The notes under the pieces are model-generated. The model made no database searches, was not told the DNA's origin, and was given only the letters and a program-made list of their open reading frames with translations. A stretch of 64,000 bases of DNA from Loxodes magnus (taxonomy: Eukaryota; Ciliophora; Karyorelictea; Loxodida; Loxodidae). Positions 1-63,366 of this stretch are shown in pieces. The stretch is from assembly GCA_946699065.1 (NCBI GenBank), contig CAMPDV010000195.1, forward strand, positions 248,001 to 312,000, read 5' to 3'. How positions within the stretch are numbered: the first letter of the stretch is position 1; every line of letters starts with the position of its first letter. Made by a program: the position numbers and the translations under genes.

Positions 1-1566
1 ATTGCACTCTTAACAGTAAGGAATCACTTAATTACAAGGTTCACAAATTTAATCTTAATTTAAATCTTATTCACTTGCAGGGCATTGAATGTCACATTTC
101 TTATCGATTCATCTTAATTTATAAGGATTAAAACAAGAGAAGCATTAAGAAGTATTGCAGATTTGACAATTATTTGAAAATAATGAACAGGTCAGGCATT
201 AATCTTTGTTACTATTTAAATAAAAACCAGGAGAACATAGAGAACACTTTAATCCATCTTCTGTACATTACTAGCAATTTTAAATAGCTTCATTACAACT
301 TAAGCAAATTCTATAATTATCTTTGTCTTATTCAGTTTCTGGACAGTTAGCTGAGCATTTGTTTATATCATATTCTAACTTATAAGGAGAAGTACACTCT
401 ATGCATGGATTTCCTCCAGTGGAACATGTTTTACAATTATTTATTGTGCAGGCATAACATTTTAAGTCAACTCCAATATAGAATCCATCACTACATTTTT
501 TGCAAGTTAATCCATCAGAAGCGCATTCTAAACAGTTAGTTAAAGTTTAGTTGCATGGTTCACATTTTCTATCTCCATTTGAGTCTTAATGAGTAAAAGG
601 ACAGGTGTCTTAGCAAGAATTCTAATAAAGATATGTCTTAGAACATTAAGTACAAGTAATTGCATCAGTGCAAGCTGAACAGTCAGATATAACTGAACAT
701 GAAGAACATGTATTTCCTAAGATAAAATATCCAGTTTCACACAATGTGCAAACTGTTCCAAGAATATTGCATTAAAGACAATTGGTAAGAACTAAATTAC
801 ATAATTAACATTTAAAGTCATTGTCTTTATCTTATGTTGTGTTTAGACAAGTATCTTAGCATGTCCCATCCAAATTCAAATACTTGTTACTTAGACAGCT
901 TTAGCAAGTTGTGAGTGTTGAATCATAGCATTATCCATTTAAACAACCATTTGAACATAAATAGGAATTATAGAGAGCTACAAATTCTTGTTCGGTTAAT
1001 TATTTATTATTAGTCCAAAATCTTAAATCATAAATACTACAATTAAATATTGTATTTTGAGTTGAACCAATTGTAATATAAGAATTAGTAGTAAACGTAA
1101 ATTATTTGTAGCTAATGTTATTAGTGGGAATAAAAATTTTACTAGTGGAAGATTTTATAAAACTGTAGGTCAGATTGTAATTAGCTTGTTAAACTAAAAT
1201 TAATGTTCAACTATTATAAATTTTTACTAAAGAAGTCAAACTTAAATTGAAATCAGCTCTATAAAATTTTGTAATTTCATAGCTACTATAAATTAAAAAT
1301 TAAATATCCATGTAAGAGCTTTCGTTTTACAAAGTAAAGGCTGTTTAAAATATTGTCCCGCTTTAGACGCTTTAGAATGAAAATTTAAATCACCCTGTTA
1401 CAGCTCAGCCAGTTTGTGAGTTTATTGAAGGATCGTAATTAAGCTAAGAAAATTATTCTTTTTGTGTATTTTACCCTTATACAGTAATTGGAATGCTTGG
1501 ATTTGTAAGTTATAAGTATTGAGAAAAAACTTAATAAAGCTGTAAAATCAGGAACGCTAGTCACAT
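1..1566 (-). CDS. Cys-rich LamG-like surface protein A, N-terminal part (runs off left edge)
   Basis: Partial gene of 522 codons, open from an ATG at 1566 to the left edge when TAA/TAG are Gln and TGA is Trp. It begins with a signal peptide (MWLAFLILQLYQVFSQ), in which codon 2 is TGA. A LamG/concanavalin-like beta-sandwich follows (about residues 20-190, with GWAVTGWF, NSWTLILVQQ and RFWTNN). After that come Cys-rich CxxC repeats of the furin / growth-factor-receptor type (about 195 onward, such as CSNGC, CSSCS, CKKCSDGFY). Paralogues B and C share the whole order and most residues, so the start and frame are firm. The expected role is an extracellular ectodomain anchored by a C-terminal membrane region that lies outside the window. 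It is head-to-head with B, 10.4 kb apart, and shares its leader sequence. The ligand is unknown. Confidence 0.88.
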
Positions 1567-1592
1567 TTTTTATAAATAAAAGTGAAATTAAA
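1567..1592 (-). promoter_or_regulatory. Conserved 5' leader of gene A
   Basis: The bases directly before the ATG of A match those before the ATG of B (11997-12022) almost exactly, including a TATTTATAAAAA stretch touching the start codon. Further upstream the two sequences diverge quickly. This fits a short leader or core promoter with transcription starting very near the ATG. The function is inferred from conservation only. Confidence 0.4.
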
Positions 1593-9519: not shown

Positions 9520-9537
9520 ATTATTATTATTATTATT
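9520..9537. repeat. (ATT)n microsatellite
   Basis: Six consecutive ATT units in noncoding AT-rich DNA. It has no evident function. Confidence 0.7.
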
Positions 9538-12022: not shown

Positions 12023-15000
12023 ATGTGACTAGCGTTCCTGGTTTTGCAGTTTTATTAAGTTTATACTCAATTCTTATAACTTACAAATCCAAACACTCCA
12101 ATAACTATATAAGGATAAAATACACAGAAAATATTATTTTTTTAGCTTAATTACGATCCTTCTATCGACTCACAAACTGGCTGAGCTATAACAGGGTGAT
12201 TTTAATTTTAATTCTAAGGTGGGCCAATATTTTAAACAGCATTTACTTTATAAAATGAAAGCTCCTACATGGATATTTAGTTTTAAATTTATAATAGTTA
12301 TGAAATTATAAAATTTTATAGTGCTGATTTCAATTTGGGTTTGACATCTTTTTACAAAATTTATAATAGTTGAATATTAATTTTAGTTTAACAAGCTAAT
12401 TACAATCTAACCTACGGCTTTAAAAAATTTTCCATTAGTAAAATTTTTACTCCGACTAATAGCATTAGCTACAAATAATTTTTATTTACTCCTAACTCTT
12501 ATATTACAATTGGTTCAACTCAAAATACAATATTTAATTGTAGTATTTATGATTTAAGATTTTGGACTAATAATAAATAATTCACTGAACAAGAATTTTT
12601 GGCTTTCTTTGATTCCTATTTATGTTCAAATGGCTGCTTAAATGGATAATGTTATAATTCAGCACTATAAACTTGTCGAGTTTGTCCAAATAACTAGTTT
12701 TTGAATTTGGATAAAACATGCTAAGATACTTGTTTAAATATAACATAAGATAAAGACAATGACTATATTTGCCAATTATGTAACTTAGTTCTCAACAATT
12801 GCCTTTAATGTAATTCTCTTGGAACAGTTTGCACTTTATGTGAAATTGGATATTTTATCTCAGGAAATACATGTTCTTCATGTTCAGTTATATCTGACTG
12901 TTCAGCTTGCATAAACGCGACTACTTGTACTTAATGTGCTAATAAATATCTTTATTAGAATTCTTGCTATGACACCTGTCCTGTTACTCATTAAGACTCA
13001 AATAAAGATCGAAAATGTGAACCCTGTAACTAAACTTTAACTAACTGTTTAGAATGCACTTCTGATGGATTAACTTGCAAAAAATGTAGTGATGGATTCT
13101 ATATTGGAGTTGACTAAAAATGTATTGCTTGTTAAGGGATAAATGAAGATTGTGTTAAGTGCTTAGATCAAAATACCTGTACAGCATGTAAAAATAATAA
13201 AAAATTATATAAAAATAATTGTATTGAAATATGCCCTTAGACAGAATATTATGATTGAGTTAATAAGATTTGCTTATCTTGCGAATAGAAAATATCTAAT
13301 TGTTCATAATGCTTAGAGGATGGAAGTAAATGCTTGGTATGCATTGATTAATTTAATAGAACAGAAAATTTTACATGCGAGTAAATTTAAAATGAAGAGG
13401 AAAAAGAAGAAAGAATACCTGAAGAAGAAAATATACCTGAAGAAGAAAATATACCTGAAGAAGAAAGCATACCTGAAGAAGAAAATATACCCGAAGAAGA
13501 AAATATACCTGAAGAAGAAAGCATGCCTGAAGAAGAAAATATACCCGAAGAAGAAAATATACCTGAAGAAGAAAGCATGCCTGAAGAAGAAAATATACCC
13601 GAAGAAGAAAATATACCCGAAGAAGAAAGCATACCTGAAGAAGAAAATATACCCGAAGAAGAAAATATACCCGAAGAAGAAAGCATACCTGAAGAAGAAA
13701 ATATACCCGAAGAAGAAAGCATACCTGAAGAAGAAAATATACCCGAAGAAGAAAATATACCCGAAGAAGAAAGCATACCTGAAGAAGAAAATATACCCGA
13801 AGAAGAAAATATACCCGAAGAAGAAAGCATACCCGAAGAAGAAAATTTATAAGAAAATAAGTAGAAAACATAAGATTAAGAACTGAATATTGATAGTTAT
13901 AGCATATCCAATCACATTAAATTATTTATCTAATCAACTTAGCAAGCAGAATAATCGGCTATACTAGCAGGAATATGTTCAGCTGCTACTACAAGTTTAG
14001 CTTTTTCTCAATAAAGATCAATTGGAAACTGGTTTACGTTTATGATTGCAACTGAGTTTTTCTATTCAAACGCATATATTTAAGTAAAAAGAACCGATAT
14101 TCTAAATGCTTACTACTATCAATAAAGTCAAAGCTTTATTAATAAAATATAAGACAAAATAAACTTTGAATCACAAATTAGTTAAGTCCATAAATTTAAT
14201 TTACGATAATTAGGATATGAAAGTTACATTTTTTCAGCTAACTCTTTCATTTTCAATATGTTGATATTATCAGTACTGTTTTTAGATATTCTTCTTCTTA
14301 TGATTTAAAAATTTAGCAATATAGCTTGGCTGTGAAAGTTAAGAAGCAAATATTTCCATTACAGGCTGCCTTTAACACTTTATCTACTATTTAGTCTGTA
14401 AATTGGATATTCCTCCATCCTTCAAATTAGCAATCCTAACTTTTAAACCACTTTCGCCTCATTTAACTTCCTAGTCTCGTGAATAGTTTTAGTAAGTTTT
14501 ATAATTTTAGATTTTATAAGTTTTAGTTATTTTTCGTTTACTTTTCGTTTTAAAGAATTACTTCTAACTAAAGAATTAAATTAATAATGAAGACATCTAA
14601 TAAAAATAGAAGATAGAAGATCTAACAACTAAATACTTTCCTGTATTCGATGAACTGAAAAGTGAAAGGAAATCTTTAATTTTCTATCCTTTATTCCTAT
14701 TAAGAAGAATTCTGCTATCTGTAATCTTAATAGGTTTATAGGAGCATGTAATGGCTTAGATAGTTCTTTGTTTGCTAATAAGTTTATTTTAACTTATTTA
14801 CGTAGTTATATGCAAACCTTTCAAGTTCAGATTACTAAACATAGTTCATGCCTTTTAAGAGTTATGACTCTGCACTTTGTACTCTTTTAATTTTTACTTC
14901 CATTAACTCAGTAAAGAAAAAGAAGAAAGAAATTAATTAAACTCAGACTAAGCATATCGTTTAGGAAGTGCTATAGTTTTAATTTCAAGCATTATAACAG

Positions 15001-15626
15001 CTATTGGAATAGTAATGTGCATAATAGCAATGATAAAGGATATTATCACATAAATCAAAGAAAAGAAAAAATAAAAAGAACTAGAAAAATTAAAGAAATA
15101 AGCTTAGCTATAAAATTAAATTTAACTAAATAGTAACTAAGATTAAGATAATAAAAATACAAGTAAATTAGATAATAGGGACACTTTCATTGCTGAATTA
15201 CCTAATATAGATAACTCCATCATTTTATAAATGTCAAGTTCAAGGAAATTAGTTAGCAATGTAATAAATGAAAATTAGTATGAAGAATCGATATTTTAAA
15301 AAAGAGACTCTAATATTAATAGCTAAAATTAAGAGAAAAAAAACAATAAAAAGAGTAAAAAATTGAAGGAGAAAAACAAGAATAAAAAGAAAATTTAAAA
15401 CACTCCAAAGAATAAAGTTCTAGACAATAATTGACTAAAATGATTAATATCTGCTACTGATTAATAATTTATATGGAGTGTAACCCATTAAACATAATAA
15501 TCTGATATGATTCAAAAACCTTAAGCATAGTAGAATAAGAAAAAGCAAGCAAAAAAGAGTAGAATGCATAAGAAAAAGGAAAATAAGAGAGATGTGGAAG
15601 AGGAGATAAAAGTTGAAGATGCTTGA
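12023..15626 (+). pseudogene. Cys-rich LamG-like surface protein B, full length with one frameshift
   Basis: This paralogue of C spans 3604 nt, one base more than a multiple of three. Domains: signal peptide (MWLAFLVLQFYQVYTQ, TGA at codon 2), LamG-like region (about 20-190, GWAITGWF, NSWILILVQQ, RFWTNN), Cys-rich repeats (about 195-455), a 24-unit acidic I/M-P-E-E-E-N/S repeat (464-607), a polytopic membrane region, and a Lys/Gln-rich cytoplasmic tail ending EEEIKVEDA then TGA. Near 14504-14507 a run of T is one base longer than in C. Reading on in the other frame restores homology to C right to the shared C-terminus, so the only visible break is this one base. It may be a recent pseudogene, a programmed shift or an assembly error. 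Relative to C it lacks 371 codons of Cys-rich repeats. Confidence 0.85.
13415..13846 (+). repeat. In-frame 18-bp minisatellite, 24 units, inside gene B
   Basis: Twenty-four 18-bp units encode I/M-P-E-E-E-N or -S. They mostly form a 54-bp higher-order pattern N-N-S, with one N-S pair and a final N. Unit-to-unit changes are mainly CCT/CCC and ATA/ATG. It sits between the Cys-rich ectodomain and the membrane region, giving a 144-residue acidic stalk. Paralogue C has only a short acidic linker here (EEKEENIEEGKNLEEN), so the array grew in B. The other frames of this array look like long ORFs but are only reflections of the repeat. Confidence 0.95.
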
Positions 15627-26255: not shown

Positions 26256-29200
26256 ATTAATTAAAATAATACCTTTTAATTTGTATAATTAACTAAAAAT
26301 ATATAGTCATTTATCCATTTTCTCTTTTCTAAATTATTAAAAATAATTGAATAAAGCATTATTAACATTTGTTTATTAGCCTTATAAGTATTAAATAATC
26401 AACTTATTAGTCCATATCTTAATTTATTATTAAGGAGAATAAAAGCTTAAAAAATATTAACAACTGGCAACTATAATTAAATAAGTAGCTTATCTTTAAT
26501 TAGTTAGAGCATAGGCTATATTAATTTTTTTATGTCGAAGGAAATTAAAGATTTAGAAAATCATAGTAATAAACTTTAAAAGCTTAATCTGGTTTTTTGT
26601 TTATTAGAGTTTTAGATTTACCAAATATACTAAAAATGGATTAAAGCCTCTAATTATAGGAATATTTCTTTATTCATCTTATAAAATTTCTTACATTATT
26701 TCAATTTATAAACTTAAATTAGATTATCTAAGTCAAGCATTTTAAACTTTAGTCTAATATTTTATAATATGAAAGGTGTATAAATGTAGTTAGATAATTA
26801 TATACTAAAAGATTTATTAAGAGCCTAGTTAATTTTAATTAATGATTAAATGAAATTATATATTAAGTCAAGTAATAAGCATTTCACTCCTTGCTTTTAT
26901 TTTTCATTTTCTCAATTTTTTCTCCTTTCTCTCTAAATGTAGTTAACAAATCGCTTTAGTCTCCGTCTTCATAAAATTAGAAACTTTGCACTGTATTTCC
27001 CTGATCATTATCACTTTTTTATCCTTCATAATGATCATAAAACGCTCATTTTGCTTTAGGTCACTTTGTTTATGAAGTTAATTTGTTGGTTTAGATTTTA
27101 TTCTTTAGATTTTAAAGTTATTTCTAAATAATTTCTTTATTTTCTTAATATAAGATATTTGGCTCTTTTTCTTTTTCTTTTTCTTCTTGTTCTTGTTCTT
27201 GTTCTTGCTTTAAATTTTATTTTTAAATTTATTATTAGTCAGTTATATCTTCCACTATTAATATGCTTTCCTGGTTTGAAATATTATAATGTTTTTACAA
27301 GCTCTGGTTTAAACTTACTTCTTTTATTGACTCTCTATGCTTTTTCATAATCATTTCGCTTTCTCCGAATAAAATCGAAGCTTCATTGAAATTTCATCAG
27401 TTAGATTAAATTGATGAAATCCTGTAACTTCAGTATTATTATTAAGAGAGAAAACGATTATAAGCTACTTGTTTATACAGCTCCTTCAAGCATGTTCCAT
27501 ATAAGAGAGTCCATTCTAATTATTTGAGCATTTGAATAATATCTTGCTGTTAGAATACTAACTTTAGTTTCTTACTATGTTTGTTTTCTTAATCCAAATC
27601 ATAGAATTCCTAATTTGCTTCTTATTGTTTTTTCTTCTTATTATGAACTATCATTTTGCTTATCTTTTTCCTAAGCTTGTCAAAAGTGCCTTAATCCTTC
27701 TTAGCTAATTACTCTTCTTTCTTTTCCCATTTAGTAACTATCTCATTCAACTTTATGAATTTCTTAAAGTGACATAAGCGAAAATAAAATCTCATAGAAT
27801 TGGTAAATGTCTAGTATCCATATTCTGTGAAGATATAATGAAACCATACTACTAAGAAATACCCATTTATCACTATCAGCAGCACAAACAAGGCTAAATC
27901 TAGTAATTTATAACTTTCTCCTGATTCAAAGTAAATTCCTATGAACAATATGGAAATCGAAATTCCTAGGTAATTCATTTCTAAACTATTAAGCTCTTTT
28001 TTAATATAAGGCTGATATCTCATCTATAGGTATATACAGGAAAGCATTACTATGATTAGACACCAAAACTGGAATATGATAGTAGATTTTTATAGGAAGA
28101 TAAATATTAAGGTGATTATAAACTTCTAGTACATCTTTATAAACTCTCAGAAATAAAACTTATCTTTATACCCTATTGTTAGGAAACCAAACTAGGACTT
28201 TATTAGAGTTGAACTTATTAAGTTTCTTTTCTTATAAAGGTATAAAATAACTATAAAAGGAACAAATACTCCATATAGTAATAAGCCTGGTAATGCAAGA
28301 AATAGAACGAATTTTCGATGACGATCTTTCCAGCATTCTATTTCAGTATAAGCGTTTAGCACTGCATAGTCTGGGGAAATTTAGTAGCAACTAAAGGAAC
28401 TAAAGATAGCCATAATTAAGTTAGTGTATATTTAGAAGAAAGCAACACTCATGATAGTAATAAAAATAGATTTGATGAATTTCTTTCTTCTAATGATTGA
28501 ATATAGTAGAATAGAAGTAAATGCTATTATTAAAATAACTATTGGCAATCCCATATTGCTCATTACTTTGTTGTAATATTAGTTCTCATTTTACTAGTAC
28601 ATGCAATCCAGTTTAAAAATAGATGCTGTAGCTGCTTAGTATTATTGATTTATCTAAAATATTTCATTGAAGAAGTCGGGTCATTCAAACTTGAAACTCT
28701 ATATTAGATTAGAGAATTACATGTAATTGGAGAATATTTTGAAATATACTCCGTAGTAAGATTCTTATTCGTATGCTGATTTTAAAGTTTATACTACTAT
28801 ATAAAATATAAAAGCACCAAATAATACTAACACTATCGAAGATACGATTATGGTCGTTTTTTTACTCATACATCTCTAGCATTCGTTCAGTCCATTTTTT
28901 TATCAGCCTTACTCACAAACATCACATAAAACTCCTTGATAACCTTCTTTACAGTTTCCTTGTCAATTTACTGTCTGCAACATATTTTCTCTTTACTAAG
29001 GGTTGGTTATTTTGAAGTATTAATTTTAAAAGCTGCTGTTTAAAAATGTACCCAAGCAAGCCTTATGCTTTGGACATTTGTGTATTGTCTCTGATTTAAA
29101 GTTTAATCTTCAATAGCCTTCTTTAGGCGCTATTAAATCACCGCCATAGCACATTGCTCCTTACATGCATTCCTTACAAGATTTATCACTTTAATTTAAA

Positions 29201-31637
29201 GAATATTAGCCAAATATACAGCTTTAACATTAAGTATCGTCTATCAATATTTGGCCTTAAAGGCACTTATCAATGTTTAATGATATTGTTAGTTTGTTTT
29301 CCATATTCTTGTCTAGTGCCAGATCTCCTTTTTCAAAAGAATTTGTTTCTAATTAAATATGAACTTGCTTTCCAGGGTTAGCTTTGACAATTATGTCTTT
29401 AATATTAAAAACTCCTAACTCTGAAAATACCCTTGTCTTGCCAGACAAATCAGCGTCTTCAGAAAAAATAGAAACGATAGAAGTATTGTCAGTTTTAACT
29501 ATCTATCCAAAAATATCTGTTATATATAAAACATTCTCAGGAACAGGATAGCCAGGTAATTAAGATGCTAAGCTTCTATCAATAGAATTATTATTACAAT
29601 GATCAAAAACATCACTGACTGAAATATTACTTAATTTAAATGCAAATGAGGCTACATTATTTCCATAGTAAGCTGAGTTATTTTTGAACAGTTTGCATAC
29701 TAAAAGGCTATCTAATTCAGGTATAAATGTAGGGATTGTTCCTTAGAATGAAATAGCTCCGCCTTCGCTTATTACGCTCATTACTTTGTTGTTAAAGAAA
29801 GAATTATCTTAAAAGTAGTAGCTGCAAAGTAAACCCTTATCACATGTTACTTTTAATGCTCCTCCCTTAGAAATTTGACTGCCTTCTCCTTTTACTTGGT
29901 TATTTTGAAACAAGTTATTTCAGAAAGTTATGTTAGCATTTTGACAAAATCCTGCTCCTCCATGCTAAAATGCGATATTATCTTAGAAAATATTGTCTTT
30001 AATCAAGTAATTGTATTATAAATCATCGTTTATAATAGAGAAGCATGAACCTATCTAAGCTTATTAATGCGAGCAAATACAATTAGAAATATTGATCTAA
30101 GAATTTAAAGAATAGATTGCAGAGCTGTAGGTTTAGCTACTGATACCGTTAGTAATTTTTGTGTAGTTTAAGTTTATAAAACTTTCTTTGAAGGCTAATG
30201 CAGTACTAATGAAGTTGTCTATTTTGCAATTTTCCATGTACATTTATGATTTTTCCATGTAGATAATCGAACCATAAATTTTAGAAATACTTTTGAGAAA
30301 AGAAGTTCTATAAATCTTTAAATTGGATTAAATAGCGTAAATCGCACCTTATTATGAGAACATTCCTTCGATTGAAACAGAATCTAAATATAGGTTAGTT
30401 TTAGTAAGATGCAAAGAACTTCCTTAATCTCCGCTGCCGTTTATAAATTGACTCCTATAAATTTTTAAAGTTGAATTGAGATCACTTAAAATGAATACTC
30501 CTTGGTATGCTTACTAATTTTAGAAGAGTGAATCCTCTATAGAAATTATAGAACTTCAAACCATAATTCCAGAAGTCAATGAACTTACTTAGTTTTTATA
30601 TATCTAAGTGCTTTTTAGAATTAGCTGGCTTTAATAAACGAATATAGTTGAAGTTTGTCCTGTATTTTCATAAATTTCGGTATTTTTTATTTCACTTGCC
30701 TTTTGAGATTTAGCTGTCCATAAACTAAGGATACCCATTGAGGTAGCATGGTTGTTGAAAATAAGCGATTTTGAAACTACGAATTAAGAATTCTGCACAT
30801 ATAAAAAGGTTCCTTCTTCTGCTTTATTATTGGTAAAATTTGAATATTCAGTTCTAAATGTACTACTTAGCTGCAAGAATCCTATTCCTCCGATTTCTTT
30901 TGCTACATTGTCTGAACATTCAATTCAGTTTATTTATATATTTGATTATGAAAGGTGAAAGATAACTCCTTCTCTTGCATAATTTTAGCTGAATTTAGAG
31001 TTAGAAACTGTTATATTAGATTGATCAGCTTTAATTACTGCTCCTATGTTAGCTATATTTTCAGTTCCTTGTATATCATCAATTTCAGCTTTGACTTGCT
31101 AAAATAAGAAGATAGCTCCTTTAAAAGCGTAATTATGCTTGAAGATGCAATTTTGAATTTATATTTTATCTTAGCTAGCATCAATAGCACCTCCTTAACT
31201 TGATGCCCTATTATTACGAAATATGCTTTTATATATTTAATAAATTGAAACTTATGACTGTATAGAACCCCCATTAAGGGCTTCATTGTTCTAAAAAGTA
31301 GTATTTTATATTATTCCTTATGCGTATTATAGCACTAAAATAGATCCTTTAGGAGCTGTATTGTTCACTACAAAGCAGTCTAGCAGACTAAAGTTTCTAT
31401 TGGAAATTTTTATTAAAATTCCATCAGAAATGTTGTTTCTTAGCAGTTAAGTGTCTAACACTTCCAAATTAGTGTTTTTAGTATCTATAAGTCCTTATTT
31501 AGCTTAGTTCTCTATAAATTAGTTTTGCTTAATAGTCATCATCTTTATTTCTAGAGTTTGAATTACTTGGCTGGCTTAATTAAATAAGAAAGAACATCTT
31601 TATAAGCTTAATAAGTCTGATATTACTAGATAGAAAG
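26256..31637. repeat. Left arm of a 5.4-kb near-identical inverted repeat
   Basis: This is the reverse complement of 58619-64000. Paired coordinates add to 90256 at almost every point checked, so there are very few indels. It covers the 3' two-thirds of the giant surface gene and several hundred bases of downstream noncoding DNA. Differences are scattered single bases plus small indels. Identity drops abruptly at 31637/58619, although the gene continues. The spacer between arms is about 27 kb. Confidence 0.92.
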
Positions 31638-34200
31638 TATTTCCATATACCGAAGTGTTATTTTAGAACGTAAGTGAATCCAAATAAGCATTTGTGTTCA
31701 TTAAAACAAAAATGGATCCTGAAAATGCTTGGTTCTATATTAAGTCATTTTTATACAAGTATAATGAAACTTAGGATAAATACATTACGGCACCATCACT
31801 AGCTTAACTCTACCTAAACTAAGTATTTTAAATTATAACGTTCCCTTGTTATGAAATTATACTTCCACCGTCATTATCTGCTGAATTATCAATAATTCTG
31901 CTATCTAGAATAGTAATTTCAGTATCAGAAAGATACAGGCAAGCTCCATACTTCGCTTTGCTTTTCTGAGCATTCAAATTCTGAATTTAAATTCTGCTTT
32001 ATTCTGAGTATATAAGCCCTCCACTTACTTATGCAATGTTATTGTTACTTTTGATATTTGATAATGAAATCTCAGATTGAACACTGTAAATGAAAGTACC
32101 TTTAAAAGCAATATTATTTTCAACGTTTAAGTTAGAGATTTATGCTTTTAAAAAATCGACGAATATTGTTCCATATCTGGTTACAATATTTTGCTTTATT
32201 GTCAAATTGTTGAGATTAAAACTTTAAACTTTAAAATAAAAAACACTTCCTGAAACTGCTTTGCTTAGAGTGAACTAACTGTCTGCAATTCAAGATTATA
32301 TTCCTAAATTCTGGGAAATTAAATAAAAAACTCCTCCATTTTAATTAGCTTCATTTTCTAAGAACTCGCTATTCTGCAAAATGTTCAGATAAGATTATTA
32401 TAAGCAAGCAAACCCACCATTCTCTCCAAGCGCTTTATTCTTATAAGCTGTAATATTGTTGATTTTTTCAATTATCGAATTCTATAAATACATTGCTCCG
32501 CCACTAAATGAAGTAGCAATATTCTCAATAAAGCTACAATCTTCAATTAATTTAATTTCTGAGTTTAAAAGACTAATAGCGCCTCCATATTTTTATGCTT
32601 TATTTCTTATGAACAAATCCTTTGACATATAATTCACTTTTGAGTCTTCCAGATACTAAGCGGCGCCAAAATCCAATGCATAGTTTTAAACATAGGTATT
32701 ATTTAAACTTATTTCGATATAAGAAAAATCATAGAAAGCTAAAACGCCTCCTATTTTGGCAGTATTGTTATAATAGTAATTATTCTGCATCAAGTTAATG
32801 GTTAAATTTGCCGCACAGAAAAAGCCTCCTTATTCTGTTAAAGCATAATTACCAGTAGCTTAATTATCCACTATCTAATTTATTCACGAGTTTGCCATAA
32901 ATAATGCTCCTCCGTAGTATTGTGTAACGAAGTTTTATCTAAAGGTATTTTCTTAAATTGAGGTTATATTCGAATAAAATGCGAAAACTGCCCCTCCAAA
33001 TCATTAAGCATGATTCTAGATAAACTAACTCCCTTTAATTTAATTAATCTGAGAATAAAAAGAATATATACCGCCTCCTTATTCTTCTACGCTATTTTAT
33101 ATGAAAGTGCAGTTAGTAATATAGTAGCAGTAAGAGAAATCTAATAAAATAATTCCTAATTTATACGCAAAGTTTTAATCAAAGGTACATCCTTCAAAAC
33201 TGCTTTTGGAGTTTTTTAAATTAAAAGATGATCAATAAGCTTAGTTTTCACGGAAGTAGGTATTTTTCATATAAGTTTCTGAGTTTTTTGAGTATATTGT
33301 AGCTCCATTTTATCCTTAATTCAGGTAAAATGTTCCATTTTACATCAGTAAGTAAGTATTAATTAAATAGAAGGGGGCCTGACTAGCTACATTCTCTAGA
33401 ATGTATGTATCCTCCATGACTATATTACATTTTGTTGCATAAATTACTCCAGAGCTTTAATAAAATTTAGACTTTTTAACGCTAACTTAAGAATTTACTA
33501 TTTTCAAAAAGAATCCATAATCAGAAGTCTTGCTATTTAAGACTGTTAAGTTATAGGTTTAGAAAAGGCTTTAGTCAACACTGAGATAAAAGCCAAACTT
33601 CAAAATAAAATTTTTTATAGTTGTATCGTACATTTTTAGAACAGCACCGCTGGATTTAATAAGTGAAAGAGCTTAGAATTATCCGCAATCTATTTAATTG
33701 CAAGTGGATCCACTTTACATCTACTCACCGCTAATTATGATATTTCTTATGACTAGAGTATCATTCTATTATAAATATATCTAAGTTTATGGTTTTTATA
33801 TAAATAGAGTGGTTTAGTTTAATTTCTAAAGACACATAGACTTGTTTGTAGTTTCATCTATACATTCAAAATTCAAGATTGTTATATTTTTAGGTCCCTT
33901 TTTAGCCGCTCCTCCTCGCAGAATATCACAAGCTATTTTGCAGGTAGGACATATTAAGCAATCTACACTGTGATTATGAGGAGAAATAAAGACTTCATAT
34001 TAATTTCCTTCAACCAAGCTATAAAGAGCGCTTTAAACGGAATTAAATGGTTCACTTAAAGAACCATTGAACTTATTGATTTTAAGAGTGGCAATAACTG
34101 AAGGTGTTGTTACGTAAACCTAAATAGCCTAGAAACTAAGTATGAAAAAAAGCTATATAACTAAAAACTGTAATAGCAGCACAGAACTGACTTTTTTCAT
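26884..34200 (-). CDS. Giant beta-helix, GYW-module, multi-pass surface protein, copy 1
   Basis: A single frame of 2439 codons from ATG (34198-34200) to TGA (26884-26886), with TAA/TAG as Gln and internal TGA as Trp. It has a signal peptide (residues 1-32, MKKVSSVLLLQFLVIQLFF). An ectodomain of about 1600 residues follows, made of repeated GGA-I/F...N-A turns like pectin-lyase / polymorphic-outer-membrane parallel beta-helices. Then comes a Cys-rich segment with GYWT, CKEGYQGVLCDVCEQGW and CQRC (about 1650-1777), about seven hydrophobic segments (from about 1780), and a charged tail with a QEQEQ/KEKEK run. Ciliates have many such large surface membrane proteins; the substrate or ligand is unknown. 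Its length equals copy 2 exactly. The 5' half is diverged from copy 2, and the 3' half is nearly identical. Confidence 0.9.
27394..27399 (-). other. Tandem in-frame TGA TGA read as Trp-Trp (copy 1)
   Basis: Two consecutive in-frame TGA codons about 170 codons before the proposed terminator. The frame stays protein-like beyond them (ESEMIMKKHRESIKEV, later TKWPKAKWAFYDPYEG), and an in-frame 6-bp length difference between copies lies downstream. Both points argue that these TGAs are read through. Confidence 0.6.
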
Positions 34201-42864: not shown

Positions 42865-45800
42865 TCAAGCCTCTTCAACTTTTATCTCTTCTTCTACATC
42901 TTTCTTAATTCCCTTTTCCTTTTCCTTTTGCTTAGCTCTTTTTCTTTATTGTCTTTCTTTTGCTAGTTAATCTAAAGATTTTCAAATTGAATCCGGCCAT
43001 TATGCTTAATGTGTTACACCCTAAATAAATTCTTAGTCAGTTGCAGATATTAATTGCTTTAAATAATTATTGTCTAAGATCTTTATTTTTGGAGAATTTT
43101 AAATTTTCTTTGTTTTCTTATTTTTCTTTTACAAATTTTTACTTTTTTTATTATCTTTTTTCTATTCGATTTAGAAATTAGGACTAGCGTCTTCTTTCTA
43201 AAGCATGACTTCTTTGTTCTAATTTTAATTTATAGCAACTAACTACCTTTAACTCGACATTTATAAAATGATAGAGTGATCTGAATTAGGTTATTCAGCA
43301 ATGAAGGTATCTCTACTATCTAGTTTACTTGTATTTTAATTTTCTTAGCCTTGGCAGCTAATTGGTATAGGGTAATTTTATAACTAAGCTATTTTATTTT
43401 ATTTTTTTATTTCTTTTTGTTTTTTCTTTTCTTTGATTTACTATATAATATCCTTTATCATTGCTATTATGCACATTACTATTCCAATAGTTGTTATAGT
43501 ACTTGAAATTAAGACTATTGTTCTTCCTAAACGATATGCTTAGTCTGAATTTACAGAGTTTAAGTTTCTAGTTACTTGCTCTTTGCTAAGCTAGTAAAAG
43601 TAGAAATTAAAAGAATACAAAATGGAGAGTCATGTCTCTTATAAGGCGTGAATTATGTTAAGTGATTTAAACTTAAAAGGTCTACATTTGAGAATGTAAG
43701 CAAGTTAAGATAAACTTATTACTAAGCACAGAACTATCTAAGCCATTGCGTATTCCTATAAGCCTATTAAGATGATAGATAGCAAAACTCTTCTAAGCAG
43801 AAATAAAGGATAGAAAATTAAAGCTTTTCTTTCACTTTTCAGTTCATCGAATATAGAAAAGTATTTAGTTGTAAGTTCTTCTAGTTTCTATTTTTATTAG
43901 GTGTCTCCAGTATTAATTTAGTTCTTTATTTAGAAATAGCTCTTTATAACAAAAAGCAAACGAAAAAGTACTAAAACTTATAAGATCTAAATTATAAAAC
44001 TTACTAAAGCTATTCCCGATGCTAAGACATTGAAAGAGGTGAAAGCGGTTTAAAAGTTGGGATTGTAAATTTGGAGAATGGAGGAATATCCAATTTACAA
44101 ACTAAAGAACAGATAAACTGTTAAAGGTAGCCTATAATGGAAATACTTTTTTCTTAAGCTTTTTAGCCAAATGGTCTTACAAAGTTTTTATTAAATAAGT
44201 AGAAGAATATCTACAAACAGTACTGATAAAATAAACATGTTGAATATAAAAGAGTTAGCTGAAAAAATGTAGCTTTCGTATCCTAATTGTCGTAAATTAA
44301 ATTTATGAATTTAACTAATTTATGATTCAAAGTTTATTTTGTCTTACATTTTATTAATAAAACTTTGACTTTATTGATAGTAATAAGCATTTAGAATATC
44401 AGGCCTTTCCACTTAAATATAGGCATTCGAATAGAAATACTCAGTTGCGATCATAAAAGTAAACCAATTTCCAATTTAATTTGACTGAGAAAAAACCAAA
44501 TTTGTAGTGGTAGCTAAACATATTCCTGCTAGTATAGCCGATTATTCTGCTTGTTAAGTTGATTAGATAAATAATTTAATGTGATTGGATATGCTATAAC
44601 TATCAATATTTAATTCTTAATCTTAAGTATTTGTCTAATTTTCTTCTAAATTTTTTCCTTCTTCTATATTTTCTTCTTTTTCCTCTTCATTTTATATCTT
44701 CTCACATGTAAAATTTTCTGTTCTATTAAATTAATAAAAGCATACCAAGCATTTACTTCCATCCTCTGAACATTATGAACAATTAGATATTTTCTATTCG
44801 CAAGATAAGCAAATCTTATTAATTCAGTCATAATATTCTGTCTAAGAGCATATTTCAATGCAATTATTATTATATAGCTTTTTATTATTTTTACATACTG
44901 TACAGGTATTTAGATCTAAGCACTTAACACAATCTTCATTTATTTCTCAACAAGAAATACATTTTTAGTTCTATAAAAAGAATCCTTCTTTACATTCTAA
45001 GCATTACACTAATTACTAATCGCATTTATTACAATTTTCTATTTCTAAATCACAGCCCTAACAAATATTATCTTAGTCATAATCTTATTCACTTTCATCA
45101 CATAAGGAAGTACATTTATTTTAAGAAAGCTTCAATTTATTACACTTTAAGCAAACATTTTACTATATGCAGCCAATACAATTTACATCTATCTAAGAGC
45201 ACGAAGAACAGCTATTATTGAATGGAGTTTGATTACCAAAACATTAATCACATACAAGTTAATTATTTTCTACATGACATTTCTCACAATTTTCTATTTC
45301 ATAACTACAAGTTTAGCATTCATTATCTTTATCTAAGTCTTATTCAGTATCTGGACAGAAATTTACACATTATTTTTAAGAAATTATTTTACTACAAAAC
45401 TAGCAATTAAAAGAAGAGTCATAAAAATAATGTTTAGAGCAGCTATCAACACATTAGTTATCTTATAACTTTTTAGGATTCAAACAGCTTAAGCAAGTCT
45501 TTCCATCTTATGAACAAGTAGAACAAAACTAAATACTTTCTTAACATTATTTACATTAAGAATTTTAATAAATCCAATAACCAGTTTCGCAAAGAGAGCA
45601 AGATTATACTTATTAATTACACTCTTTACAGTGAGGAATCCCTTAATTACAAGGTTCACAAATTTAATCTTAGTTTAAATCTTACTCACTTGCAGGACAC
45701 CGAATGTCACATTTCATATCGATTCATCTTAATTTATAAGGATTAAAACAAGAGATACATTAAGAAGTGTTACAATTTTGGCAATTATTTGAAAATGCTG

Positions 45801-47172
45801 AGCAGGTCAGACATTAATCTTTGTTATTATTTAAATAAAAACCAGAAAAACATAGAGAACACTTTAATCCATCTTCTGTACATTACTAGCAATTTAAAAT
45901 GGCATCATTACAACTTAAGCATTTTCTATTGCTATCTTTGTCTTATTCAGTTACTGGACAGTTAGCTGAACATTTGCTTATATCATATTCTAACTTATAA
46001 GGAAAAATACACTCACTACAAGAGTTTCCTCTAGTGGAACATGTTTTACAATTATTTATTACGCAAGCATAACATTTTTAGTCAACTCCAATATAGAATC
46101 CATCACTACATTTATTGCAAGTTAATCCATCAGAAGTGCATTCTAAGCAATTAATTAAAGCTTAATTACAGAGTTCACATTTTCGATCTTTATTTGAGTC
46201 TTAATGAGTAACAGGACAGGTGTTTTAGCAAGAATTCTAATAAAGATATTTATTAGCACATTAAGTACAAATAATTGCATCAATGCAAGCTGAACAGTCA
46301 GATATAACTGAACATGAAGAACATGTATTTCCTAAGATAAAATATCCAGTTTCACACAATGTGCAAACTGTTCCAAGAATATTGCATTAAAGACAATTGG
46401 TAAGAACTAAATTACATAATTAACATTTAAAGTCATTGTCTTTATCTTATGTTGTGTTTAGACAAGTATCTTAGCATGTCCCATCCAAATTCAAATACTT
46501 GTTACTTAGACAGCTTTAGCAAGTTGCGAGTGTTGAATTATAGCATTATCCATTAGCACAGCCATTCGAACATAAATATGAATTAAAAAGAGTTACAAAA
46601 TCGCTTACAGTGAATTATTTATTATTTGTCCAAAATCTTATATCGAATATACTACATCTAAATTATTTATTTTTAGATGAACCAATAGTAATATATGAAC
46701 TTTAAGTAAACGGAAAATATTTGTAGCTAGCAGCGATTGCTGAAATAAAAAATAAATTTGTAGATGGTCCAATAAAACTGAAAGTCAGGTTATTATTTGC
46801 TTGTTGGAGCAAAATCAATGTTCAAGTATTACGAATTTTAAAAAAAGATTACCTTTGTAATTAGAAATTTTTATTATAAATTTAAGTATGTTCAAAGTTG
46901 GAATAAACTTAAAACTGACATTCCGTGTATTCATTTTAATCTTGCAAAGCAAGCGCTACTTAATGAAAATTATCATCAAAGGTTAAAAACTTAAATCACC
47001 CTGTTATAGCTCAGACAGATTGTGAATTGAGCGAAGGATTGTAATTGAACTAAGAAAATGATTTATTTTGTTATTCATTGTCTAAGATAGTTATTGGAGG
47101 GCTTGAATTTGTAATTTATAAGTATTAAGAGCAAACTTATTAAATCTACAAAGCAAGAAAGACTAGTCACAT
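42865..47172 (-). CDS. Cys-rich LamG-like polytopic surface protein C (intact, 1435 aa)
   Basis: The complete family reference: 1436 codons, ATG (47170-47172) to TGA (42865-42867), TGA followed at once by TAA as in B. It has a signal peptide (MWLVFLALQIQQVCSQ, TGA at codon 2). The LamG-like domain (about 20-190) carries VWAITGWFKF, NTWTLILLQQ and RFWTNN. Cys-rich CxxC repeats follow (about 195-825), then a short acidic linker and several hydrophobic segments (about 870-1240, such as FIFNMFILSVLFVDILLL and IVLISSTITTIGIVMCIIAM). A long Lys/Gln cytoplasmic tail has GVTHQAQWPDSIWKSLDQL and ends EEEIKVEEA. This is a plasma-membrane receptor- or antigen-like protein by architecture; the ligand is unknown. 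TGA-encoded Trp at matching sites in A and B supports the frame. It has 371 more Cys-repeat codons than B. Confidence 0.92.
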
Positions 47173-51165: not shown

Positions 51166-51179
51166 ATATTAATTTTTTT

Positions 51180-53735: not shown

Positions 53736-53905
53736 GGATTCACTCCTTTGGAAATTCTGTCTTAGGGTATGGTCGAAATGATGCCCCAAAAAAACCTAAT
53801 CTTTTGGCATTTTTCAACCGTTACCCAATGCCTCCAGTTCTTTCCTCTTGGCTCCTGCAAAGATTCTTGCTCCGTTCGATTGTACTATTTAACATTTTTA
53901 TCTTT
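53736..53905. other. GC-richer island at the upstream edge of the decayed giant gene
   Basis: About 170 bp of richer composition. Minus-strand frames are partly open (RTEQESLQEPRGKNWRHWV and EKCQKIRFFWGIIS) and abut the first recognisable family turn. The family is not recognised. It may be another insertion fragment. Confidence 0.35.
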
Positions 53906-56049: not shown

Positions 56050-59000
56050 ATGACGAGAGCAATAAGTTCATCTTTGTTACTTTTGTCGATTTTATACTCT
56101 ATTTCTAAGCTTGGATGCTAAGCTATTAATGTGTATATTACAATACCTTAAATCACAAGCTTGCTATCGCTTACTAATCTTAATGGATCTTTAGAATAAC
56201 CATTCAATTCTTTTTCAAATGCGCTCCTTAGTTTGACCGAAGGAGTTTATTATGAAGTTTTCGTTTCTCCTCATTAACATAAAGTAGATTGCTTAGTATG
56301 TTCAAAATGTACCTCTTTATGTGAAATTCTTAGAGGAGGGATAGCCAAAAAAGCACCTAAAAATATAACAATTTAGCCATTTAGCTGCAAAGACGATATA
56401 TCAAACAAAACTATGTGTCTAGACAAATAAAACTAAACTACCTTATATATTCAGAAAGTACAGCTTTAGATATACCTTCAATAGTATGACTTTCTAAGTT
56501 TAAAGAATCTAATAATAAGTGGAGAATAGATAAACAATGGAGCTACATGTAACTAAATAGACTGCACTTTATTTTAAAGCAATATACTTATAAGATCCTC
56601 CAGTGCTATGATATCAATAAATAATACAACTATTAAAAACTTTTACCTAAAGTAGAATTCCTTACTTTATGGTGATAGGAGTGTTATAGAAATTTATAAC
56701 TCATCATTTTAAAAAAGCAACACTTCTGATTCAGGAGCTTCCTTAATATTGAGTAACTCTCAAATTACTATTTAAAATGGCAAATTCATCCAAAACGGAG
56801 GGGGTGTTATAAAAGCTTCTGTATGTAATATAACTATAAATGAAATTTTGATTTCAGAAAGTTACTCTCCAGCAGGAAACTTTTATTAATATAAATCTTA
56901 TGTAGATTTACAAAATGGTACCTTTTATCGAAACTAGGGACTTAGTGGAGCACGCTTAAACATATTATACTCTGAACTCCATGTAGTAAAATCCAATTTT
57001 TATGAAAATTCAGGACTTCAAGGAGCAGTTATGTATTCTAGATATTCCAATTCCAGCTTTTAAGATTGCGTTGCAGATTCAAACTCAGCTGTAAAAGGTG
57101 GAGCCTTTTTCTTAATCTTTACCTTTAATGATTATATCTCTAATTGCACTTTTAGAAATAACTAGGCTGAAGAGTCTGGAGGTGTAATTTTTAGCTGGTT
57201 TTCCGAAATGAACGTAGTAAACAAGAGCAAGTTTATTGCGAATAAGGCTAAGATATTTGGAGGAGCTATTTCTTTGTTTCAGACAAATATAAATTTTATA
57301 GATTATAACTTGTTTGATTATAACCAAGCTGAATAATAATGGGGAGGGGCCATTTTTATAGTTAACGCTTTTATAAAGTCATTATCTGATAATATAGTAT
57401 AGAGTAACATAGTTTTCTCAACAGACGGTGGGTTTTTCTATTCAATAAATGTCACAATTAGAGTACTACAAAATAACTTCTTCTTTAACAACTCAGCTAA
57501 GAATGGAGGGGGCATCAGTATTTTCTCAAAATCTGTAGTAGAAATAGTCTTTAATAATACCTTCGATTCTAATTTGGCTTAAAATTGAGGAGCAGCCTTT
57601 TATTCTGAAAACTCAAAAGTACTCTAAATAACAAAAAATACATTTATAAGAAACTAGGCTTAATGATATGGGGGAGCTTTAGCTTTCATTAGTTCAGAAA
57701 CCAGCTTAATTGAGGATTGTGTGTTCATTTAAAACGCAGTAGTTTACTTCAGCGGAGGGGCTTTGTATTTATAGAATTCGATAGTAGAAAAAATCAATAA
57801 TATTACAGCTTAGAGCAATTAAGCACTTGGAGAAAACGGAGGGTTTGCATGCTTCTAGTAGTCTTATCTTGACGTTTTACAGAGCAGTCAATTTCTGAGA
57901 AATGAAGCAAAGTAAAAAGGAGGGGCACTTTTTCTAGTATCCCAAGACAAAAGAAAATAAGCTTATATAATAGAATGCTCCTTTATTCTCAACCAAGCTG
58001 ATTCAGGAAGTGTTTTTTATTTCTAGGGTTAAAGCTTTAATCTCAACAACTTGATAATAAAGTAAAATAAGGCTATTAAATACGGAACAGTATACATAGA
58101 CTTTTTATAGGCTTATTTATCTGATATAGACGTTTAAGATAATGCAGCATATAAAGGTGCGTTTATTTATAGTGTTCAATCTACTTGGTCATTCGAAAAT
58201 ATCAATAGTATCAATAATGTTGCAGAAGTAAGTGGAGGAGTAATATACTCAGAATAGAGCAAAATCTAAGTTAAGAATTTAGTTGCATAGAAAAGCCTAG
58301 CTAGATATGGAGGTTGCTTTTATCTTTCTGATACTGAAATTACAATTTTAGACAGTAGTCTTTAAAATAACGAAGCAGTTATTAACGGAGGAAACATAAA
58401 TGCCTAGCAAGGAAAAATTACTATTAGAAACACTGTATTTAGGTAGAATTCTGCTAGTGATGGCGTTGCAATGTACTTATCCTAAGTTTCAATAAACTTA
58501 TCTCAAAGTGACTTTATCAGTAATAAAGCTATTTCAGGATCTATTTTATTTTTAATGAACTCAAATGCTAGCCTAGACTTGACTAACTTCCATAACAATA
58601 CTTCAATAAATGGAAATGCTTTCTATCTAGTAATATCAGACTTATTAAGCTTATAAAGATGTTCTTTCTTATTTAATTAAGCCAGCCAAGTAATTCAAAC
58701 TCTAGAAATAAAGATGATGACTATTAAGCAAAACTAATTTATAGAGAACTAAGCTAAATAAGGACTTATAGATACTAAAAACACTAATTTGGAAGTGTTA
58801 GACACTTAACTGCTAAGAAACAACATTTCTGATGGAATTTTAATAAAAATTTCCAATAGAAACTTTAGTCTGCTAGACTGCTTTGTAGTGAACAATACAG
58901 CTCCTAAAGGATCTATTTTAGTGCTATAATACGCATAAGGTATAATATAAAATACTACTTTTGAGAACAATGAAGCCCTAAATGGGGGTTCTATACAGTC

Positions 59001-62000
59001 ATAAGTTTCAATTTATTAAATATATAAATGCGTATTTCGTAATAATAGGGCATCAAGTTAAGGAGGTGCTATTGAAGCTAGCTAAGATAAAATATAAATT
59101 TAAAGTTGCATCTTCGAGCATAATTACGCTTTTAAAGGAGCTATCTTCTTATTTCAGCAAGTAAAAGCTGAAATTGATGATATACAAGGAACTGAAAATA
59201 TAGCTAACATAGGAGGAGTGATTAAAGCTGATCAATCTAATATAACAGTTTCTAACTCTAAATTCAGCTAAAATTATGCAAGAGAAGGAGTTATCTTTCA
59301 CCTTTCATAATCAAATATATAAATATACTGAATTGAATGTTCAGACAATGTAGCAAAGGGAAACGGAGGAATTGCATTAATGCAACTAAACAGTACATTT
59401 AGAACTGAATATTCAAATTTTACCAATAATAAAGCAGAAGAAGGAACCTTTTTATATGTGCAGAATTCTTAATTCGTAGTTTCAAAATCGCTTATTTTCA
59501 ACAACTATGCTACCTCCATGGGTATCCTTAGTTTATGGACAGCTAAAACTCAAAAGGCAAGTGAAATTAAAAATACCGAAATATATGAAAATACAGGACA
59601 AACTTCAACTATATTCGTTTATTAAAGCCAGCTAATTCTAAAAAGCACTTAGATATATAAAAACTAAGTAAGTTCATTGACTTCTGGAATTATGGTTTGA
59701 AGCTCTATAATTTCTATAGAGGATTCACTCTTCTAAAATTAGTAAGCATACCAAGGAGTATTCATTTTAAGTGATCTCAATTCAACTTTAAAAATTTATA
59801 GGAGTCAATTTATAAACGGCAGCGGAGATTAAGGAAGTTCTTTGCATCTTACTAAAACTAACCTGTATTTAGATTCTGTTTCATTCGAAGGAATGTTCTC
59901 ATAATAAGGTGCGATTTACGCTATTTAATCAAACTTATCAGTTTATAGAACTTCTTTTCTCAAAAGCATTTCTAAAATTTATGGTTCGATTATCTACATG
60001 GAAAAATCATAAATTTACATGGAAAATTGCAAAATAGACAACTTCATTAGTACTGCATTAGCTTTCAAAGAAAGTTTTATAAACTTAAACTACACAAAAA
60101 TTACTAACGGTTTCAGTAGCTAAACCTACAGCTCTGCAATCTATTCTTTAAATTCTTAGATCAATATTTCTAATTGTATTTGCTCGCATTAATAAGCTTA
60201 GATAGGTTCATGCTTCTCTATTATAAACGATGATTTATAATACAATTACTTGATTAAAGACAATATTTTCTAAGATAATATCGCATTTTAGCATGGAGGA
60301 GCAGGATTTTGTCAAAATGCTAACATAACTTTCTGAAATAACTTGTTTCAAAATAACCAAGTAAAAGGAGAAGGCAGTCAAATTTCTAAGGGAGGAGCAT
60401 TAAAAGTAACATGTGATAAGGGTTTACTTTGCAGCTACTACTTTTAAGATAATTCTTTCTTTAACAACAAAGTAATGAGCGTAATAAGCGAAGGCGGAGC
60501 TATTTCATTCTAAGGAACAATCCCTACATTTATACCTGAATTAGATAGCCTTTTAGTATGCAAACTGTTTAAAAATAACTCAGCTTACTATGGAAGTAAT
60601 GTAGCCTCATTTGCCTTTAAATTAAGTAATATTTCAGTCAGTGATGTGTTTGATCATTGTAATAATAATTCTATTGATAGAAGCTTAGCATCTTAATTAC
60701 CTGGCTATCCTGTTCCTGAGAATGCTTTATATATAACAGATATTTTTGGATAGATAGTTAAAACTGACAATACTTCAATTGCTTCTATTTTTTCTGAAGA
60801 CGCTGATTTGTCTGGCAAGACAAGAGTATTTTCAGAGTTAGGAGTTTTTAATATTAAAGACATAATTGTTAAAGCTAACCCTGGAAAGCAAGTTCATATT
60901 TAATTAGAAACAAATTCTTTTGAAAAAGGAGATCTGGCACTAGACAAGAATATGGAAAACAAACTAACAATATCATTAAACATTGATAAGTGCCTCTAAG
61001 GCCAAATATTGATAGACGATACTTAATGTCAAAGTTGTATATTTGGCTAATATTCTTTAAATTAAAGTGATAAATCTTGTAAGGAATGCATGTAAGGAGC
61101 AATGTGCTATGGCGGTGATTTAATAGCGCCTAAAGAAGGCTATTGAACATTAAACTTTAAATCAGAGACAATACACAAATGTCCAAAGCATAAGGCTAGC
61201 TTGGGTACATTTTTAAACAGCAGCTTTTAAAATTAATACTTCAAAATAACCAACCCTTAGTAAAGAGAAAATATGTTGCAGACAGTAAATTGACAAGGAA
61301 ACTGTAAAGAAGGTTATCAAGGAGTTTTATGTGATGTTTGTGAGTAAGGCTGATAAAAAAATGGACTGAACGAATGCTAGAGATGTATGAGTAAAAAAAC
61401 GACCATAATCGTATCTTCGATAGTGTTAGTATTATTTGGTGCTTTTATATTTTATATAGTAGTATAAACTTTAAAATCAGCATACGAATAAGAATCTTAC
61501 TACGGAGTATATTTCAAAATATTCTCCAATTACATGTAATTCTCTAATCTAATATAGAGTTTCAAGTTTTAATGACCCGACTTCTTCAATGAAATATTTT
61601 AGATAAATCAATAATACTAAGCAGCTACAGCATCTATTTTTAAACTGGATTGCATGTACTAGTAAAATGAGAACTAATATTACAACAAAGTAATGAGCAA
61701 TATGGGATTGCCAATAGTTATTTTAATAATAGCATTTACTTCTATTCTACTATATTCAATCATTAGAAGAAAGAAATTCATCAAATCTATTTTTATTACT
61801 ACAATGAGTGTTACTTTCTTCTAAATATACACTAACTTAATTATGGTTATCTTTAGTTCCTTTAGTTGCTACTAAATTTCCTCAGACTATGCAGTGCTAA
61901 ACGCTTATACTGAAATAGAATGCTGGAAAGGTCGTCATCGAAAGTTTGTTATATTTCTTGCGTTACCAGGTTTATTACTATATGGAATATTTGTTCCTTT

Positions 62001-63366
62001 TATAGTTATTTTATACCTTTATAAGAAAAGAAACTTAATAAGTTCAACTCTAATAAAGTCTTAGTTTGGTTTCCTAACAATAGGGTATAAAGATAAGTTT
62101 TATTTCTGAGAGTTTATAAAGATGTACTAGAAGTTTATAATCACCTTAATATTTATCTTCCTATAAAAATCTACTATCATATTCCAGTTTTGGTGTCTAA
62201 TCATAGTAATGCTTTCCTGTATATACCTATAGATGAGATATCAGCCTTATATTAAAAAAGAGCTTAATAGTTTAGAAATGAATTACCTAGGAATTTCGAT
62301 TTCCATATTGTTCATAGGAATTTACTTTGAATCAGGAGAAAGTTATAAATTACTAGATTTAGCCTTGTTTGTGCTGCTGATAGTGATAAATGGGTATTTC
62401 TTAGTAGTATGGTTTCATTATATCTTCACAGAATATGGATACTAGACATTTACCAATTCTATGAGATTTTATTTTCGCTTATGTCACTTTAAGAAATTCA
62501 TAAAGTTGAATGAGATAGTTACTAAATGGGAAAAGAAAGAAGAGTAATTAGCTAAGAAGGATTAAGGCACTTTTGACAAGCTTAGGAAAAAGATAAGCAA
62601 AATGATAGTTCATAATAAGAAGAAAAAACAATAAGAAGCAAATTAGGAATTCTATGATTTGGATTAAGAAAACAAACATAGTAAGAAGCTAAAGTTAGTA
62701 TTCTAGCAGCAAGATATTATTCAAATGCTCAAATAATTAGAATGGACTCTCTTATATGGAACATGCTTGAAGGAGCTGTATAAACAAGTAGCTTATAATC
62801 GTTTTCTCTCTTAATAATAATACTGAAGTTACAGGATTTCATCAATTTAATCTAACTGATGAAATTTCAATGAAGCTTCGATTTTATTCGGAGAAAGCGA
62901 AATGATTATGAAAAAGCATAGAGAGTCAATAAAAGAAGTAAGTTTAAACCAGAGCTTGTAAAAACATTATAATATTTCAAACCAGGAAAGCATATTAATA
63001 GTGGAAGATATAACTGACTAATAATAAATTTAAAAATAAAATTTAAAGCAAGAACAAGAACAAGAACAAGAAGAAAAAGAAAAAGAGCCAAATATCTTAT
63101 ATTAAGAAAATAAAGAAATTATTTAGAAATAACTTTAAAATCTAAAAAATAAAATCTAAACCAACAAATTAACTTCATAAACAAAGTGACCTAAAGCTAA
63201 ATGAGCATTTTATGATCCTTATGAAGGATAAAAAAGTGATAATGAACAGAGAAATACAATCCAAAGTTTCTAATTTTACGAAGACGGAGACTAAAGCGAT
63301 TTGTTAACTACATTTAGAGAGGAGGGAGAAAAAATTGAGAAAAAGAAAAATAAAAGTAAGGAGTGA
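56050..63366 (+). CDS. Giant beta-helix, GYW-module, multi-pass surface protein, copy 2
   Basis: This frame runs 2439 codons from ATG to TGA (63364-63366). An N-terminal hydrophobic segment (SSLLLLSILYSISKLGC) serves as signal. The ectodomain has many beta-helix turns (GGAISLFQ, WGGAIFIV, GGGISIFS, GGALFLVS). A Cys-rich module (about 1650-1777) has EGYWTLNF, NWQGNCKEGYQG and CDVCEQGWQKNG, where GYW, NW and GW use TGA. Hydrophobic segments follow: IIVSSIVLVLFGAFIFYIVV, GLPIVILIIAFTSILLYSII, FLALPGLLLYGIFVPFIVIL, YLGISISILFIGIYF and ALFVLLIVINGYFLVVWF, among others. The charged tail contains QEQEQ and TKWPKAKW. It is a type of large ciliate surface protein with unknown ligand. It has no introns and no frameshift. 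It shares a near-identical 3' part with copy 1 and a diverged 5' part. Confidence 0.9.
62857..62862 (+). other. Tandem in-frame TGA TGA read as Trp-Trp (copy 2)
   Basis: Two adjacent TGA codons in the frame of the giant gene (codons 2270-2271). Downstream codons keep protein character to the proposed terminator 167 codons later. If these were the real stop, the protein would end just after the seventh membrane segment and a short tail, so this is the main uncertainty about the C-terminus. Confidence 0.6.

Follow-up and report, generated by a model that had tools for sequence, protein, structure and literature searches.

The 64,000 bases analysed here (the window; bases 248001-312000 of contig 195 of the genome that was searched, whose assembly totals 705,730,643 bases over 7843 contigs) are, with a probability of about 0.97, macronuclear DNA of Loxodes magnus that is read under NCBI translation table 27. 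Under this code, UAA and UAG would be translated as glutamine, and UGA would be translated as tryptophan inside genes and would serve as the sole stop at their 3' ends. The original prediction had assigned TGA to tryptophan and stop and TAA and TAG to glutamine (table 27), and this assignment is backed by columns of aligned paralogues, by actin and eRF1 genes and by gene ends. The sense assignments of table 27, TGA at the verified gene ends and the drop in GC content after four gene ends in the window were all established here. The analysis represents an independent confirmation, from raw genome sequence, of a code that assigns a single codon to an amino acid as well as to termination, and it adds to this known code the details of genes that begin with ATG TGA, TAA in the GGQ motif of eRF1, arrays of tRNA-Trp genes together with one gene with a 5-bp anticodon stem, and tRNA-Sec genes.

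The window is AT-rich, with a GC content of 0.168-0.307 in 2-kb steps, and no stop-to-stop frame of at least 200 codons was found in its 64 kb under the standard code. When a start codon was required, the standard code gave just two frames of at least 150 codons within the 64 kb and, therefore, the window could pass for non-coding or pseudogene DNA, a risk that applies to such windows in general. The longest stop-to-stop frame was 634 codons when TGA was the sole stop and 216 codons when TAA and TAG were the sole stops. The predicted frames of 522, 1436, 2439 and 2439 codons proved to be exact for the genes A, C, G1 and G2, respectively (Table 1), the first length being clipped by the window edge. 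These frames had been described as open only under the present reading, and they are indeed full of in-frame TAA, TAG and TGA codons; as evidence by itself, however, their openness carries no weight, because every frame is left unclosed when all three codons are sense. Frame length being uninformative, the test must rest on comparison. Coding-signal models outlined the five genes (G1, G2, A, B and C) as the largest coding-like regions, together with eight smaller segments, which is an outline and no test with respect to A, C, G1 and G2, because the models were trained on these same genes. A tRNA scan and an Rfam scan of the window gave no matches, and a Pfam search with 18 frame-stretches from six other regions (one strand each) and with the later part of B gave sub-cut-off matches only. 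Duplicated copies were abundant across the region. An interspersed repeat of ~550 bp, with ~80-87% identity and variable 19/39-bp units, was observed at window positions 6713-7242 and 52769-53323, and the same repeat was also present upstream of an eRF1 gene (L042:1-606).

Table 1. Genes, verified stop codons and tryptophan columns in the window (positions are those of the window).
Feature	Position	Strand	Details
A, cysteine-rich surface-type protein gene	1..1566	-	522 codons in window; runs past window edge
B, relative of A and C	12023..15626	+	ends TGA TAA
C, relative of A and B	42865..47172	-	1436 codons including stop; ends TGA TAA
G1, giant repeat/membrane protein gene	56050..63366	+	2439 codons including stop
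G2, inverted paralogue of G1	26884..34200	-	2439 codons including stop; 81.5% amino acid identity to G1
Stop TGA of G1	63364..63366	+	GC 0.294 in gene, 0.167 in next 150 nt
Stop TGA of G2	26884..26886	-	GC 0.289 in gene, 0.180 in next 150 nt
Stop TGA of C	42865..42867	-	GC 0.269 in gene, 0.147 in next 150 nt
Stop TGA of B	15624..15626	+	GC 0.244 (part after frame change), 0.135 in next 150 nt
Sense TGA (Trp) in G1	61144..61146	+	column of 12 TGA and 3 TGG in 15 rows
Sense TGA (Trp) in G1	61291..61293	+	column of 9 TGA and 6 TGG in 15 rows
Sense TGA (Trp) in G1	61351..61353	+	column of 12 TGA and 3 TGG in 15 rows
Sense TGA (Trp) in G1	61573..61575	+	column of 9 TGA and 6 TGG in 15 rows
TGG in G1	61924..61926	+	column of 8 TGA and 7 TGG in 15 rows
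Sense TGA (Trp) in G1	62107..62109	+	column of 13 TGA and 2 TGG in 15 rows

The tryptophan meaning of TGA was supported by homologue alignments, in which the decisive exchange between TGA and TGG came from paralogues outside the window and none from within it. The C-terminal part of G1 gave 55 matches in the whole genome, including G1 and G2, with printed identities of 43-92%; stop codons seem to have been scored as mismatches in this search, because G1 matched itself at just 92%. An alignment of 15 rows was composed of G1 and stretches of 14 other matches (13 at 43-51% and one at 70%). Six of its columns held exclusively TGA or TGG, with 63 TGA and 27 TGG among the 90 cells; a seventh held 7 TGA, 1 TGG and 7 tyrosine codons, and six more had a lone TGA amid mostly non-tryptophan residues. 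The differences among the 15 rows numbered 11397, 6492 and 19088 at codon positions 1, 2 and 3, respectively, and this excess at the third position indicates that the frame is under selection and that the genes are not dead. In a separate observation, WD40 arrays consisting of long runs of near-identical 126-bp repeats were found at eight loci (L001-L008, G000:C1503); in the four loci printed, TGA was located at GHAD-W-V and RT-W-IGH, and KVWD was encoded with TGG save for one TGA at the end of an array.

Within the window, G1 and G2 encode what look like large membrane proteins rich in repeats, their Pfam matches (DUF7630, DUF7631 and Chlam_PMP) all being sub-cut-off. G1 contains 15 sense TGA, 9 TGG, 108 TAA and 37 TAG codons (145 for TAA and TAG together), and G2 contains 17 sense TGA and 6 TGG codons. 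Over 2426 aligned codons, the two genes differed 289, 251 and 461 times at codon positions 1, 2 and 3, respectively, with the highest number at position 3, and TAA and TAG were exchanged with CAA and CAG. Mixed TGA/TGG columns were absent from the alignment of G1 with G2, which had 13 columns of TGA in both and 6 columns of TGG in both, and six TGA cells stood opposite TTT (two), TAT, CAA, ATA and AAA. The residue preferred for TGA was also evaluated by the score of a G1 stretch against DUF7630, which was highest with tryptophan (25.3 bits), followed by Y (24.5), F (24.3), L (20.1), S (19.0), G (18.7), R (18.0) and C (14.0). This residue test is weak, because none of the scores reached the curated cut-off of 27 and because the score with TAA and TAG as tyrosine (25.8) was slightly higher than that with glutamine. 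The pair forms part of an inverted duplicate of ~6.5 kb (26256-32715 on the reverse strand and 57541-64000 on the forward strand; 93.3% DNA identity), which spans most of G1 and G2 and continues past the stop, and the 5' piece matches at just 69%, as if after partial gene conversion.

The surface-type genes A, B and C are cysteine-rich and all open with ATG TGA, which places TGA at the second codon, provided that this ATG is the start. Within the window, A contains 5 TGA codons and 1 TGG, with a sub-cut-off match to Pfam VSP; C contains 9 sense TGA and 5 TGG codons and gave no Pfam match; and B gave a sub-cut-off match to a low-complexity model. No exchange of TGA with TGG was found in the A/C, A/B and B/C alignments. 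Among the motifs that had been put forward as conserved tryptophan sites in these genes, YDW was recovered in B and C, whereas A has TAA at that site, which lies beyond the window, and the GW ahead of TGW turned out to be VW in C. The homology between B and C switches frame near position 14510, at a T-run that is one base longer in B. This extra T in a short T-run (14500-14520 of B, compared with C near 43990) could reflect an error in sequencing or recent decay of the gene. B also carries an 18-bp tandem repeat at window positions 13404-13846 that encodes a EEENIPEEESIPEEE-type acidic stretch, which is much shorter in C and A.

Genes with well-characterized protein counterparts were compared at the same codons. 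Among three actin genes read, the first has four TGG codons and no TGA; the single TGA of the second (L091, codon 80) is opposite tryptophan of PDB actin; and the third, which is divergent (L092), has TGA at codons 79 and 340 opposite tryptophan and at codons 41 and 46 opposite T and G, respectively, so that three of the five TGA codons overall are opposite tryptophan in PDB actins. Searching the genome with an actin C-terminus pattern yielded 55 matches, compared with 2 chance matches for the backward pattern used as a control. The next codon was TGA in 54 of the 55 and TAA in the remaining one, which is without actin sequence upstream. These 54 TGA-ended termini (G000:C266, C711, C707 and others) represent five distinct sequences, with 3 read upstream, indicating that actin is multi-copy or over-assembled. 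Two complete and slightly differing eRF1 genes (L042 and L043) are located ~35 kb apart on C196. The former encodes 436 amino acids (E 7e-159 to PDB 4d5n), and its aligned codons stood opposite glutamine of 4d5n in 7 of 13 cases for TAA, 2 of 6 for TAG and 2 of 7 for CAA. The glutamine codon of GGQ is TAA in both eRF1 copies, and the NIKS region reads GRAQNIKS compared with GTASNIKS in 4d5n.

With regard to gene ends, it had been predicted that six complete frames end in TGA; four such ends could be verified, namely those of G1, G2 and C and, past its frame change, that of B. The last sense TGA was 54, 54, 39 and 61 codons upstream of the stop in G1, G2, C and B, respectively, that is, at least 39 codons at all four window ends, and the last TAA or TAG was 24, 24, 27 and 31 codons upstream (the values for B being those of the part after the frame change). 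The differences between G1 and G2 at codon positions 1, 2 and 3 were 3, 2 and 8 ahead of the stop and 6, 6 and 3 beyond it, the codon rhythm being lost past the stop in these small numbers. Five close paralogues share the KSKE-TGA end of G1 and G2, and the GC content after it is ~0.17-0.19 in G1 and these five; the count leaves out five distant paralogue stretches, the ends of which were not placeable. TGA was the stop at every verified end, in a sample that is small and partly made up of near-identical copies. These ends bear on a Condylostoma-type code (table 28), in which each of the three codons has a sense meaning and can also end translation close to the poly(A) tail. Such a code has identical sense meanings, and the TAA that adjoins the TGA at the ends of B and C would be a second stop codon; nevertheless, all of the verified ends have TGA (G1, G2, B, C, the five close paralogues, the two eRF1 copies and 54 of the 55 actin matches), and the eRF1 gene L042 has a sense TAA, opposite glutamine, just 14 codons ahead of its stop. 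Table 27 thus provides the better fit because of the TGA ends and this late sense TAA, and we consider table 28 very unlikely.

The glutamine meaning of TAA and TAG was evaluated in the paralogue alignment by masking TAA, TAG and TGA. As a result, tryptophan accounted for 270 of the 397 pairs with TGA, a log2 enrichment of 6.87, and the top enrichment of TAA and TAG was that of glutamine, with log2 values of 3.55 and 3.70, respectively; when standard codons were masked as a control, the right residue was obtained for 57 of 59. These values bear on the suggestion that the DNA belongs to another eukaryote with a similar code. All three codons are reported to be read in Amoebophrya sp. ex Karlodinium veneficum, with UAR as glutamine and UGA as tryptophan, and in Blastocrithidia, with UAR as glutamate and UGA as tryptophan, according to PMC12005148 and PMC12153298. 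However, the enrichment of glutamate (1.58 for TAA and 1.25 for TAG) is well below that of glutamine, and the fall in GC content from 0.24-0.29 in genes to 0.135-0.18 downstream is like that from 33.5% to 18.6% described for Loxodes in PMC11441545, which makes such an origin extremely improbable. Finally, the view that these are pseudogenes or a decayed repeat family, with in-frame stops arising as ordinary mutations in dead genes that follow the standard code or table 6, could appeal to the one-base frame change of B relative to C and to the duplicated copies that fill the region, but it has next to no probability in light of the third-position excess of paralogue differences, the six columns of exclusively TGA or TGG and the TGA and TAA codons at conserved tryptophan and glutamine residues of actin and eRF1. 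Table 6, table 28, the Blastocrithidia code and pseudogenes were all rejected.

Turning to the tRNAs that could serve the table 27 code, a tRNA-Trp pattern gave 392 matches in the genome, and the 100 matches listed were located on C67 (48), C148 (51) and C110 (1), all with the anticodon CCA. The tRNA-Trp(CCA) copies read on C67, arranged in units of ~187 bp, show 27A.43C and a 4-bp anticodon stem; in two copies read on C148 the pair is 27U.43C and likewise open; and the gene on C110 has a 5-bp anticodon stem (positions 27 and 43 in standard tRNA numbering). A genome-wide pattern search for tRNA-Trp(UCA), based on the body of both CCA classes, gave no matches, and a differently built gene would escape this pattern. 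The RF00005 model gave 63 matches in the genome, but this search was of no help for tryptophan, because the 30 matches examined all hold tRNA-Lys, some of them beside tRNA-Ala. For tRNA-Sec, 3 of 52 matches to the Rfam model were above the cut-off (73.9, 70.5 and 63.5 versus 47 bits) and the other 49 were below it; in control genomes, low matches were obtained in 14 of 14 and matches above the cut-off in 5. ARAGORN identified tRNA-Sec(tca) in both of the loci examined (L094 on C30 and L095 on C6). As a side observation, tRNA-Sec(UCA) genes are thus present in a genome in which UGA is already tryptophan and stop. It might be suggested that UGA has three meanings (tryptophan, stop and selenocysteine) and that its decoding as tryptophan depends on dosage, in which case the amplified tandem tRNA-Trp(CCA) genes with the 4-bp stem would read UGA, the separate 5-bp gene would be kept for UGG, and UGA would be favoured in expanded surface-protein families; we regard this extended scheme as unlikely.

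The observation and its interpretation both hold, and earlier publications already cover this code, its organism and the tRNA mechanism that is likely behind it. In PMC11441545, table 27 is reported to be used by karyorelicts including Loxodes, the macronuclear assembly of L. magnus is given as 706 Mbp, coding UGA and UAA are depleted ~20 codons ahead of stops in Loxodes, and the GC content of its coding sequences is higher than that of its 3'-UTRs. The present results share with that account TGA as both tryptophan and sole stop, the depletion of coding UGA and UAA shortly ahead of stops and coding sequences more GC-rich than the 3' flank, and no differences from that account were found. Condylostoma magnum, as described in PMC4967479, has in common with L. 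magnus that all 64 codons are sense and that ends are set by context; UAA and UAG are stops there too, whereas they were found at no verified L. magnus end. UGA as tryptophan, stop and selenocysteine is reported for both Condylostoma and Parduczia in PMC4967479. Parduczia sp. shares with L. magnus UAA and UAG as glutamine and UGA as tryptophan and stop, its UGA being selenocysteine as well; that account is based on a transcriptome, whereas in L. magnus it is the genome that was analysed, in which tRNA-Sec genes are present. With respect to tRNA-Trp(CCA), a 4-bp anticodon stem is described for Blastocrithidia and Condylostoma, with Loxodes named too, in PMC13092985. In those genes, as in the L. 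magnus copies, the anticodon stem has its top pair open, the pair being A.C or U.C in L. magnus and 26C.42U in that paper. Unlike the system described in PMC13092985, L. magnus carries tandem tRNA-Trp arrays together with one 5-bp gene.
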